Source of the DNA: a bacterium
GTDB taxonomy: Bacteria > Electryoneota > RPQS01
Assembly: GCA_036504735.1 (NCBI GenBank)
Contig: DASXUQ010000017.1
Span: 1 to 33,348 of the forward strand
Reading direction: 5' to 3'
DNA: 33,348 nt
Below, piece after piece: positions 1,527 to 5,473 of the stretch. Each line of letters starts with the position of its first letter. Within the stretch, counting starts at the first letter, position 1. The notes below the pieces were generated by a model. It was not told the origin of the DNA. It saw only the letters and a program-made list of their open reading frames with translations, and did not search any database. A program made the translations under genes and the position numbers.

Positions 1527-2075
1527 ATGACGGACAAACCTAGGAACAAGGAAATCGAAGCCCTTGAGAAATTAGCTGAGGCGTTCGAAAGTCTGGATCC
1601 TGCAGCGGCTCTGCGGGTGGTCAAGTATGTTCTTGACATGAAATCAATCTCGCTCGAGACTTTTGCCTCGCCTCCTCAACAGTCAGCGCACAAATCGCCT
1701 CCGCTGCCCGAGGAAACGCATGTAGACAAGAACAAACAGACTATCCAGAAACCGAGAGCGAACTCAGACATTCGATCGTTTGCGCAAGAGAAGAGTCCGA
1801 AATCTGAGAACGAGCGAGCACTAGTGGTGATGTTCTATCTCTCGGAAGTCCTAACAGGTGAGTCGAAGGTAGACGAGTTCAATGCATCGGTACTGGAACC
1901 ATACTTCAAGCAGGCGAAGCTACCGGTGCCAAAACACCTGAGGCAGGTTCTTGTAAACACCAAGAATGCGGGGTATATTGACCAAGCCTCAGCGGGCCAT
2001 TATAAACTCAACGCGGTTGGCTACAATCTGGTTGAACATAAGCTCCCAGCGAATACTGAGCCAAAATCTAAGTAG
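1527..2075 (+). CDS. Small accessory protein with probable winged-helix DNA-binding domain
   Basis: A 182-residue protein. The frame is open from 1458, but ATG 1527 is preferred because AGGAG (1515-1519) lies 7 nt upstream. Residues 1-40 are a charged helical segment (EIEALEKLAEAFESL). Residues 45-95 look disordered, rich in Pro, Gln and Lys. The last 85 residues form a compact helical domain ending in a typical wing (AGYIDQASAGHYKLNAVGYN). I recall similar C-terminal domains, with a helix-turn-helix core and a closing NFVEHxLP-like motif (here NLVEHKLP), from genes next to phage-defence loci; this is memory, not a search. By hand count of sample lines the gene is about 50 % GC against about 62 % in the flanking transporters, which suggests acquisition. 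It is 41 nt upstream of the next gene and probably co-transcribed with it. Confidence 0.6.
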   Translation: MTDKPRNKEIEALEKLAEAFESLDPAAALRVVKYVLDMKSISLETFASPPQQSAHKSPPLPEETHVDKNKQTIQKPRANSDIRSFAQEKSPKSENERALVVMFYLSEVLTGESKVDEFNASVLEPYFKQAKLPVPKHLRQVLVNTKNAGYIDQASAGHYKLNAVGYNLVEHKLPANTEPKSK

Positions 2076-2116
2076 TTGGTGATCAGTTATGTCATTGACG
2101 AGGAGAGACTGTAACC

Positions 2117-2950
2117 ATGCCAGCAGATTACGACAAAGATTGGCGCTCATTTGTAGACGACTTGACTGGCCTTTGGGTCGACATTAAGAAGATGACCTCC
2201 AGAAATATTAACTCGAAAGAACTCCGAAATCGTGGTCGATCATTGGTCCAGACCTATTTCAGAACAATACGCAGCGATCTTGACGCCATCGGCATCGCAG
2301 ACGAGCTTGCGCAATTCGACAGCGACTTTCAACAGCTACTTGTTTTGACCAATGGACAGAATGCTAGACAAAGCTACTTGAAGTGCTTGAACAGACTAAA
2401 AGTCTGCACGAAGAGCCTTGACGTAAGTCGCGAATTAGCCATCGCCGCAACTATTCGGAAAAGCAAAGCCGACAATGGTGCTCCGATGTCCGGGGCCGAG
2501 GAGGAAATATCGAAGACTCTACACAGGCTCGTGCCTACTGCGGCGCGATGTTATGATCAGGTTGTTGCGGATCTACACGCGACTTCCAGAGTTTCGTGGC
2601 GAGGTACGGCATGTGAAATACGAGAGTGCTTGCGGGAAGTTCTTGACCATTTTGCTCGAGACGAAGACTTAACCGCTCAACCCGGTTTCAAGGTCGAACC
2701 GAACACATCAGGGCCAACAATGAGGCAGAAAGCTGCGTTCATCATGAAATCGAGAGGCGATCCTGATGCTTTGCGTCGACAAATCACTGGGCAGGCACAC
2801 GACATTGATGAGATGTTTGCGAAATTGACTCGAAGTGTCTATGAACGTGGCTCACTCTCCACGCATACAGAATCTACACACGACGACGTGAAGCGGCTCA
2901 AAAGAAATGTGGACGTCGTAATGGTGGAACTGCTTAAGCTGACATTTTAA
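2117..2950 (+). CDS. Possible pPIWI-associating-nuclease-like protein (accessory, putative defence)
   Basis: A 277-residue soluble protein with no signal peptide or membrane segment; GAGGAGAGA at about 2100-2108 serves as the ribosome site. The N-terminal half is helical (DWRSFVDDLTGLW; a helix pair around residues 40-110). The C-terminal half carries the recognisable blocks SWRGTACEIRECLREVLDH, PGFKVEP, PTMRQKAAFIMKSRG and YERGSLSTHT. These recall the Pfam 'predicted pPIWI-associating nuclease' families (pP_pnuc), which were first described next to prokaryotic PIWI genes. No PIWI/Argonaute gene is present here; the only partner is the winged-helix gene 41 nt upstream. Base composition is AT-richer than both flanking genes. 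Catalytic residues are not established by me. Alternative: an uncharacterised abortive-infection-type protein. Confidence 0.55.
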   Translation: MPADYDKDWRSFVDDLTGLWVDIKKMTSRNINSKELRNRGRSLVQTYFRTIRSDLDAIGIADELAQFDSDFQQLLVLTNGQNARQSYLKCLNRLKVCTKSLDVSRELAIAATIRKSKADNGAPMSGAEEEISKTLHRLVPTAARCYDQVVADLHATSRVSWRGTACEIRECLREVLDHFARDEDLTAQPGFKVEPNTSGPTMRQKAAFIMKSRGDPDALRRQITGQAHDIDEMFAKLTRSVYERGSLSTHTESTHDDVKRLKRNVDVVMVELLKLTF

Positions 2951-2954
2951 CGAG

Positions 2955-2975
2955 GGGAGCGCCAGCATCGCTCCC
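2955..2975 (+). terminator. Hairpin after the accessory cassette (weak terminator)
   Basis: A 7-bp GC-rich stem, GGGAGCG (2955-2961) with CGCTCCC (2969-2975), and a 7-nt loop, five nucleotides after the stop codon at 2950. No T-run follows, so it may be an mRNA 3'-end stabiliser rather than an intrinsic terminator. Confidence 0.35.
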
Positions 2976-3015
2976 ATGCGCGACAACACCAGTCGGGAGG
3001 GTGGCGGAGCCGAAT

Positions 3016-3049
3016 AAAGGATGAAGGATGAAGGCGGAGGGATGAAGGA
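3016..3049. repeat. Degenerate GGATGAA repeat
   Basis: AAAGGATGAAGGATGAAGG followed by CGGAGGGATGAAGGAA, the same unit and orientation as the array at 1-95. The two copies bracket the first transporter and the accessory cassette. Confidence 0.75.
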
Positions 3050-3148
3050 ATGCGAAGAAGGCTCGAACCTGAAGAAGGTGGCGGGCCTTTTTTATGCAGA
3101 ACCCCCTTCTGATCCCCCCTTTTTCAAAGGGGGAAGGTCAGATGAAGA

Positions 3149-3176
3149 GCCCGCCAAGGCGGGCGCTACAAGCGCC
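3149..3176. repeat. Palindromic element, double hairpin
   Basis: GCCCGCC (3149-3155) pairs with GGCGGGC (3158-3164) across a 2-nt loop. GGCGCT (3162-3167) pairs with AGCGCC (3171-3176). The two hairpins overlap, so they are mutually exclusive. Confidence 0.6.
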
Positions 3177-3227
3177 TTGCCCCGCTTGTGGTGAGATCTC
3201 GGCTTCGCCGGACCTTCCGGCACTACA

Positions 3228-3340
3228 TTCAGAATGTGGCGGCGCGGAGGCCGCCACCTAATAGGTGCGGTACCTGTCTCCCACTTTCGTCAGAATGTGG
3301 CTTCTTTCAGAATGTGGCGGCGCGGAGGCCGCCACCTAAT
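3228..3340. repeat. REP-like palindromic repeat, two full copies plus a partial
   Basis: A 35-nt element occurs identically at 3228-3262 and 3306-3340. It begins TTCAGAATGTGGCGGC and ends GCCGCCACCTAAT. The core is a perfect 8-bp stem, GTGGCGGC/GCCGCCAC, with loop GCGGAG (3236-3257 in copy 1). A truncated copy (TCAGAATGTGG, 3290-3300) precedes copy 2. No transposase of the RAYT type is present in the window. Confidence 0.85.
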
Positions 3341-3360
3341 CGCACAGGCTTAGACAATCC

Positions 3361-3387
3361 GGGCGGGATGGAACCCGCCGGCTAATC
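3361..3387. repeat. Variant palindromic element
   Basis: GGCGGG (3362-3367), loop ATGGAA, CCCGCC (3374-3379), followed by GGCTAATCGG. The tail CTAATCG is shared with copy 2 of the 35-nt element, so this is probably a diverged member of the same family. Confidence 0.55.
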
Positions 3388-3805
3388 GGTGCGTCTTCCT
3401 TTCTATGCCAGAAACAGAAAACCCCATCGGGATATTACTTCGACGGGGCGAAAGCTCTGTGTGGCTTTTTTTCCGCAGTGACGCACGGCGGTAAACTTTT
3501 GAACGTCACGTCTGATTGTCGTTGCGTGGCGGAGCTTTTTTGCTCTTATAGTCCGCTTGTTGTTGTGCCGTCCTGCTTGAATCTGAGGCACAATATAAGG
3601 GCCGATCTGCTCTAAGTCAACTTGATCAGCGGGAGCACAATCTGGATCGAAGCTATTAGAACTGCATCACGGTGCCGAATTGGGGAGATTCGGCCTCTTA
3701 AACAGGGGAAGAGACGGCCACCGGGTTTGTACTTTGAGCAGGATTTGAGTAACTTGAACACGATTGATCCGGCCCCGGTTTGCTTCCGCTAAAGAGTTTA
3801 ATCCC

Positions 3806-5473
3806 ATGCACTTCGACCGTTCCCACCTGACTCAACCCGGTTTCCGCACGCGGCGCGCTCAGAACTGGGTCTCCCTCGGCCTCCTGTATGCGGCCTATTA
3901 TATGTGCCGCTACAATATTACCATTGCCAATCCCATCCTGCGGGAGACCTTCGGCTGGTCGAAAGAACAGCTCGGAATGATCCTCACGGCGGGTTTCTGG
4001 GTGTATGCCGCCTCGGTGTTTCTGAACGGTCCGATTGCCGACCGCATCGGCGGACGCAAGGCGATTCTGTTCGGCGGGACGTTCGTCATTCTGTTTACGC
4101 TGCTGTTTGGTTTGGCACCCGGCTTCTTTGGTGTGCCCAATGAACTGCGGCAGCTCGGCACGCAGTATGAACCGCTGAAGGCACAGGTGTGGAATCAGCC
4201 CACCGTGATCATGAAGCGCGGCGCAATTTACAAAGGGAACGCGAGCGAGCATGTGGGGGCGGAGGATTCGCTGGCGCTGCTGGCCTCGGGCGTGAAGAGC
4301 GCGGAGATCAAAGACTATTTCCGCGTGCCGACCACTGTTTTGAAGGCCACGCCGCTGAATTCCTTTGAGCGCATTCAGGAATTCCATAAACTGCTGCCCA
4401 AGGATTTGCAGAGCGCCGATCCCGCGCGGGTGGCCATGCTGGAAGCCTTCGGAAAATCGGCGACGTTTCTGCTGTCGATCTTTATTGCGCTGTGGATTTT
4501 CAACTGCTATTTTCAGTCCTTCGGCGCGCTGTCGATTGTCAAGGTTAATGCGGCCTGGTTTCATGTGCGGGAGCGGGGAGTGTTCGGCGGAATTTTCGGA
4601 ATCATGATTCAGGCGGGGCGGCTGGGAATCATGACGCTGGGCGGGATCATTGTCACCATGATGGCCTGGGAATATGTGTTTTTTATTCCGGCGATTGTGC
4701 TGCTGGTGATTCTGATTGTGGGCAAGTTTGCCATTGCCGATGCGCCGGACCGCGCGGGCTATGCCTACCTTGATCCGGGAGACGGCAGCGATCAGGAGAA
4801 GGACGTCAAGGTCGATTACAAATACATCGCCAAGAAGGTGTTCACCAGCCGGGTGATGCTGGTGATTGCGCTGGCGGAATTCTGCACGGGCTTTGTGCGG
4901 CACGGCATCGACCAGTGGTTTCCGAGCTTTATGCGGGAAGTGCACCATGTGGCCTTCACCTCAGCGGCCTTTATGCTGACGGCGGTGGGCATGCCCATCG
5001 GCGCGATTTTAGGCGGACTTTTAGCGGGAACGATGTCCGACAAGGTATTCGGTTCACGGCGCCCTCCGGTGGCGGCGCTGTTCTTCTTTGGGCAGGCTCT
5101 GGCGCTGCTGGGATTGCATTTCAGCCAGAGTTGGGGGCCGATTGCTTCGATCTGGATGTTTATGCTGGTGTCGATGTGTATTCAGGGCACGCACAGTCTG
5201 CTTTCGGGTGTGGCCTCGATGGACTTCGGCGGCAAAAAAGCGGCAGCCTCGGCGGCGGGATTTTTCGACGGCATGCAGTATCTGGCGGGCGGCATTGTGG
5301 GCTTTGGGCTTGGCTGGTTTCTGGACACTTTCGGCTGGGCCAACTGGACATGGGGGATCATCGGCTTCAGCCTGCTGGGCGGCATCCTGATGCTCACGCT
5401 GTGGAATGCGCGTCCCGCCGGACAGCTCTCTTTGGATTTTGCGAAGAAGAAAGCCGCGGTTGTAGAAGAGTAA
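3806..5473 (+). CDS. MFS transporter, OPA (GlpT/UhpT-like) family, with large periplasmic insertion
   Basis: A 555-residue paralogue of the transporter at 158-1417. The frame is open further up (TTG 3764), but ATG 3806 gives the N-terminus that aligns with its paralogue. Shared landmarks are YYMCRYN (Arg35), motif A NGPIADRIGGRKA (residues 74-86), NCYFQSFGA, VRERG and FVRHGIDQWFP (Arg365), so both predicted phosphate-binding arginines are kept. Residues about 105-216 have no counterpart in the paralogue: roughly 112 extra residues between TM3 and TM4, on the periplasmic side by MFS topology. A 20-residue basic C-terminal tail is also extra. The pair probably arose by tandem duplication and was later separated by the accessory cassette. 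Substrate unknown; an anionic organophosphate is the family expectation. Confidence 0.87.
   Translation: MHFDRSHLTQPGFRTRRAQNWVSLGLLYAAYYMCRYNITIANPILRETFGWSKEQLGMILTAGFWVYAASVFLNGPIADRIGGRKAILFGGTFVILFTLLFGLAPGFFGVPNELRQLGTQYEPLKAQVWNQPTVIMKRGAIYKGNASEHVGAEDSLALLASGVKSAEIKDYFRVPTTVLKATPLNSFERIQEFHKLLPKDLQSADPARVAMLEAFGKSATFLLSIFIALWIFNCYFQSFGALSIVKVNAAWFHVRERGVFGGIFGIMIQAGRLGIMTLGGIIVTMMAWEYVFFIPAIVLLVILIVGKFAIADAPDRAGYAYLDPGDGSDQEKDVKVDYKYIAKKVFTSRVMLVIALAEFCTGFVRHGIDQWFPSFMREVHHVAFTSAAFMLTAVGMPIGAILGGLLAGTMSDKVFGSRRPPVAALFFFGQALALLGLHFSQSWGPIASIWMFMLVSMCIQGTHSLLSGVASMDFGGKKAAASAAGFFDGMQYLAGGIVGFGLGWFLDTFGWANWTWGIIGFSLLGGILMLTLWNARPAGQLSLDFAKKKAAVVEE

Follow-up and report, generated by a model that had tools for sequence, protein, structure and literature searches.

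A sporadic two-gene cassette carrying a pP_pnuc_1 protein and a member of a winged-helix family that stands ahead of diverse predicted effectors

Near the start of a 33,348-nt stretch of bacterial DNA (the window; contig DASXUQ010000017.1 of assembly GCA_036504735.1, Electryoneota, lineage RPQS01), two adjacent open reading frames (ORFs) form a cassette at positions 1527-2950, which we read, with modest confidence, as a horizontally acquired two-gene conflict module of the toxin-antitoxin-like or abortive-infection type. According to this explanation, ORF2, an all-helical pP_pnuc_1 protein and predicted RNase-type nuclease, would be the effector, and ORF1 its cognate 5' partner, which would repress the operon and/or keep the effector inactive; a trigger such as phage infection would then lead ORF1 to free ORF2. 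Neutralisation or sensing by ORF1, toxicity and catalysis by ORF2, and an anti-phage role are thus predictions of the model, made from sequence and gene order. The family to which ORF1 belongs would have swapped effectors repeatedly, among HEPN proteins, RelA/SpoT alarmone synthetases with ParA, class III cyclases, DUF3800 proteins and pP_pnuc_1 proteins. That it constitutes an unrecognised, widely scattered immunity hub, a common neutraliser or sensor for all of these effectors, is a wider proposal whose chances we hold to be evenly balanced. To our knowledge, few protein families partner many unrelated toxins, with Panacea as the paradigm. Another promiscuous family, different in structure but overlapping in its effector classes, would, if real, expose candidate defence operons that annotation pipelines have missed, make it testable how one small fold controls enzymes with nothing in common, and provide the poorly understood pP_pnuc_1 family with a partner through which its activity could be studied.

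Both ORFs lie on the forward strand, exactly where the initial annotation had placed them: ORF1 (1527-2075; 182 aa), a putative regulator, neutraliser or sensor, and, after a gap of 41 bp, ORF2 (2117-2950; 277 aa). Each starts with ATG and has an AGGAG ribosome-binding site upstream, which for ORF1, as read from the sequence, occupies positions 1512-1526 together with its spacer. A compact two-gene operon with a small regulator first is the layout of type II toxin-antitoxin systems, and the pair fits it. The G+C content (GC) is 0.49 in both genes, and that of third codon positions (GC3) is 0.55 in ORF1 and 0.51 in ORF2 (the ORF1 figures being taken over the mechanical ORF 1458-2075), versus a GC of 0.58-0.63 and a GC3 of mostly 0.64-0.82 in the remaining genuine genes of the window; GC3 is about 0.74 in neighbouring genes. 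The compositional contrast first drawn by hand count, about 50% against 62%, stands as far as the cassette is concerned, but the flanks lie nearer 58-60%.

The cassette is bordered by two forward-strand genes of the major facilitator superfamily, T1 (158-1417) on the left and T2 (3764-5473) on the right, which are paralogous, as proposed, and both of which match Pfam MFS_1. Orthologues of T1 in sister genomes are 71-80% identical. In one sister (G029), T1 and T2 are only 49 bp apart and are followed by a nitrilase gene, as in the window, and in another (G035) the spacing is 423 bp. PF18165, the Pfam family of ORF2, was found in 4 of 386 sampled genomes; of the 39 genomes from the host phylum, 1 has it. 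Since the site is empty or differently filled in sisters and the presence of PF18165 is sporadic, the cassette is a sporadic, foreign-looking insertion between two transporter genes. Fixation of the pair in all relatives with normal composition, which had been named in advance as evidence against such a module, is not what the sister genomes display, and a lineage-fixed housekeeping pair is rejected on the same grounds. In a further sister (G036), a different gene of 783 aa occupies the same inter-transporter site (L112:2078-4429), so that insertions at the T1-T2 junction may be recurrent.

The AlphaFold2 (AF2) model of ORF1, built from a 4-sequence alignment, has a helical hairpin (aa 5-38), a disordered linker (45-78) and a predicted winged helix (80-174), for which the confidence measure pLDDT is about 90 over most residues. 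Three helices and a C-terminal beta-hairpin wing, the arrangement that defines a winged helix, are present in this model, and the top Foldseek matches include many winged-helix domains at a probability above 0.9, but with a best E-value of only 0.03. The model and these matches bear out the winged-helix-like C-terminus suspected initially. When ORF1 and ORF2 were each used as a single query against viral contigs, genome contigs, plasmids and phages, no close relative of either was found, and distant profiles were therefore required. With these, relatives of ORF1 were found in 12 of 386 genomes (two further loci of the host genome among them), as well as in Devosia nitrariae, a Woeseiaceae metagenome-assembled genome, an IMG/VR contig and additional genomes, the genes in relatives being mechanical ORF calls. 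A profile made from three HEPN-paired proteins recovers ORF1 at 3e-17, a DUF3800-paired protein at 5e-8 and the RelA/SpoT-paired proteins at 1e-7 to 2e-3 (the best of 3000 shuffles reaches 0.075), and a RelA/SpoT-paired profile matches ORF1 at 5e-6. These profile comparisons support homology of ORF1-type proteins across the partner classes. The family has no match in Pfam, NCBIfam, PADLOC or PHROGs; ORF1 belongs to a family that is absent from these libraries yet detectable by profile. In two genomes of one family, a lone winged-helix relative adjoins an MgtE-like gene (L037:7465-8013 and L040:8690-9169), so that part of the family may be a housekeeping protein.

Members of the ORF1 family lead 14 operon-like loci, the window among them, in which the partner gene lies directly downstream on the same strand; at the 11 loci measured, the gap ranges from -4 to +45 bp. 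In five of these loci (G000:C15 of the host genome, G035, G191, G689 and the IMG/VR contig), a ParA ATPase gene and then a RelA/SpoT synthetase gene lie downstream. The genes of this trio overlap or nearly do so (L034:6016-8295 in the host; also L015, L036, L050 and L085). PADLOC reports no defence system that matches such a trio, and a literature search for one found none, which is no proof that it is undescribed; the operon is a candidate new toxin or defence system. The other of the two further host loci (G000:C9) has a DUF3800 partner, and here the ORF1-type protein contains two tandem winged-helix-type domains and its gene overlaps the DUF3800 gene by 4 bp (L035:7158-8983). A class III cyclase is the partner in G333 and G749 (L039:758-1887 and L087:4307-5417), one of these cyclases being PycC-like according to PADLOC, and the pair is possibly a Pycsar-like module.

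Apart from pP_pnuc_1 in the window, the remaining partners are of HEPN type. For these, two labels were coined here: HEPN-A (G091 and G802), assigned by motif alone, and HEPN-B (Devosia and G731, with RNGCGH and RNTCAH), assigned by the RNxxxH motif together with PADLOC. The HEPN-B partners are PD-T7-3-like in PADLOC, and one is also Csx1/Csm6-like. The Woeseiaceae locus, in which a small winged-helix-like protein stands with a DUF4145-like protein, was counted with the HEPN type. In G091, an in-frame TGA of the HEPN-like effector gene (L012:10269-11030) replaces the arginine just before NNRGVGH, the ORF1 relative being intact, and an AbiEi/AbiEii-like pair apparently lies a few kb upstream, as judged by eye. 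The HEPN-A partners of G091 and G802 are homologous at 3e-24. In the tree of ORF1-type proteins, G802 joins the RelA/SpoT-paired clade (support 97/95) and G091 joins Devosia and Woeseiaceae (90/88), with the caveats that G802 is a long branch and that the deep position of ORF1 is not settled. Because homologous HEPN-A partners accompany ORF1-type proteins of two clades, effectors were probably exchanged between members of the family, and partner type does not follow the ORF1 tree. ORF1 seems, on this comparison, more informative than ORF2, in that its family leads operons with many alternative effectors.

ORF2 consists of a helical N-terminal half and a C-terminal pP_pnuc_1 domain (aa 145-254), which matches PF18165 with 37.4 bits (E 2.4e-9) against a curated gathering cut-off of 26.3, in agreement with the likeness that the initial annotation had pointed out. 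PADLOC assigns the same region to Aga_Nuclease (E 4.4e-6). A match to PycTM (E 0.011) was below cut-off and was discarded as chance, sequence searches of the Protein Data Bank gave chance matches only, and the single-sequence AF2 model (pLDDT 46) was too poor for a structure search. ORF2 covers almost the whole profile with its C-terminal 110 residues, and its helical N-terminal extension is shared with most plasmid members; it is, however, the lowest-scoring member among those scored here. The other members sampled come from three distant genomes and from seven plasmid loci (Phaeobacter, Leptolyngbya, Leptospira, Sphingobium, Dinoroseobacter, Bradyrhizobium and Agrobacterium). Unlike the Agrobacterium member, the only one scanned in which pP_pnuc_2 accompanies pP_pnuc_1, ORF2 lacks the pP_pnuc_2 half, and it differs also in the winged-helix gene in front of it: none of these ten other loci has an adjoining ORF1-type gene, and the recurrence of the exact pair, on which the module reading had first been made to depend, was not found. 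Several of the ten adjoin restriction-modification, ABC-three-component (ABC-3C) or reverse-transcriptase genes. Nearly all aligned members share an LRE-type motif, PTRRAR and the histidine of (N)xGTH, an R/E-then-H layout that resembles that of HEPN RNases, and ORF2 still has LRE, A.DE (A(P/x)DE in the members) and PT...R.

A scan of ten window genes, to which the search for PIWI was confined, detected neither PIWI nor a helicase or methylase, as had been claimed. The emphasis formerly placed on this is less warranted: none of the pP_pnuc_1 genes sampled lies next to an annotated Argonaute/PIWI gene, and the absence of PIWI at the present locus is therefore ordinary. Downstream of the cassette, the spacer (2951-3763) is rich in palindromes, as noted at the outset. 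They resemble repetitive extragenic palindromes (REP) and form two 40-nt direct copies (3223-3262 and 3301-3340); a 20-nt core is observed twice against 0.04 times expected. The palindromes at 3223-3340 (GGCGGCGCGGAGGCCGCCAC) have conserved flanks and were not found in the other host-genome stretches examined. When scanned for promoters, the cassette yielded no more candidates than shuffled sequences did, and a repeat search upstream of ORF1 found no operator-like repeat.

Taken as a stand-alone defence or toxin-regulator module, as the initial annotation had it, the cassette is likely to have been interpreted correctly, but how its two genes divide the work can be explained in more than one way. 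ORF1 could be an infection sensor or adaptor rather than an antitoxin, its winged helix binding phage nucleic acid or protein and activating a coupled effector. The family precedes effectors without a common fold, some of which resemble the Pycsar cyclase, PD-T7-3 and Csm6, and the winged helix of ORF1 is similar to Z-nucleic-acid-binding Zalpha domains at a target-normalised template-modelling (TM) score of 0.70, a value that is generic for the fold. Yet a small protein encoded first in a tightly spaced pair would suit an antitoxin or operon regulator equally, no trigger is known, and we regard a sensor as rather unlikely. It is improbable that ORF2 acts by itself as a defence effector, as most pP_pnuc_1 proteins seem to, with ORF1 as a mere autoregulator or chance neighbour. 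The ten loci devoid of an ORF1-type gene would favour such independence, but ORF1 and ORF2 share a foreign composition and lie side by side where sister genomes have an empty site, and effectors regularly follow kin of ORF1.

Several observations weigh against the conflict module as proposed. The pairing with pP_pnuc_1 is seen in the window only (n=1), and the cyclase-paired proteins are tied to the ORF1 family by weak, borderline matches (0.008 to 5e-5). Some relatives of ORF1 are solitary (G077, G222, G354, G158, G801 and G773), several of them in housekeeping surroundings; the ORF1 fold is therefore by itself no proof of a conflict role. The kinship of pP_pnuc_1 with HEPN is no more than suggestive: in hhalign comparisons with DUF4145, scores of 18.6-24.9 were obtained against 9.9 +/- 1.7 for a column-permuted null (P 0.002-0.025, depending on the alignment). 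Finally, where the ten other aligned pP_pnuc_1 proteins all have a histidine, ORF2 has a tyrosine, unless a nearby STH is placed there instead. This possible loss, the low Pfam score of ORF2 and the nonsense codon at a conserved arginine of the related G091 effector would be expected if the cassette were a decayed relic, inactive as a pair after the loss of an active residue of ORF2. Both frames are nevertheless intact and have good ribosome sites, and ORF2 retains, of the conserved motifs, LRE and the first two residues (PT) of PTRRAR, which makes decay a quite improbable explanation. The horizontally acquired conflict module remains the reading that we favour.

Three groups of known systems invite comparison. 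We take pPIWI-RE to be among the PIWI systems to which pP_pnuc_1 owes its Pfam name, and we assume that it is connected with this particular domain. The three-gene pPIWI-RE system comprises an REase, a DinG helicase and PIWI (PMC3702460), none of which was found among the window genes scanned, and a PIWI-dependent system was rejected. HEPN toxin and effector systems (PMC3710099), including PD-T7-3 and Csm6/Csx1 with their RNxxxH motifs, are closer, as proteins of this kind are among the commonest partners of the ORF1 family. DUF4145 is itself a HEPN family (PMC3710099). The layout of pP_pnuc_1 is similar, but ORF2 matches no HEPN model and the profile similarity to DUF4145 is weak.

The closest parallel is to Panacea (DUF4065), a hyperpromiscuous antitoxin domain that is paired with many toxins (PanAT, PMC8832971; NetFlax, PMC10440598), RelA/SpoT toxins and a nucleotide cyclase among them (PMC8832971). 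Like Panacea, the ORF1 family is small, usually encoded by the 5' gene, and accompanied by unrelated partners that include RelA/SpoT proteins and a cyclase; with five kinds of partner at 14 loci, it would qualify as hyperpromiscuous on gene neighbourhood alone. Unlike Panacea, ORF1 and its kin contain neither DUF4065 nor any other Pfam match, some members lead three-gene operons, and ORF1 is a putative neutraliser. By analogy, the logic of the module appears to match that of Panacea, with a predicted hairpin and winged helix, and hence another fold family, in place of the Panacea domain.
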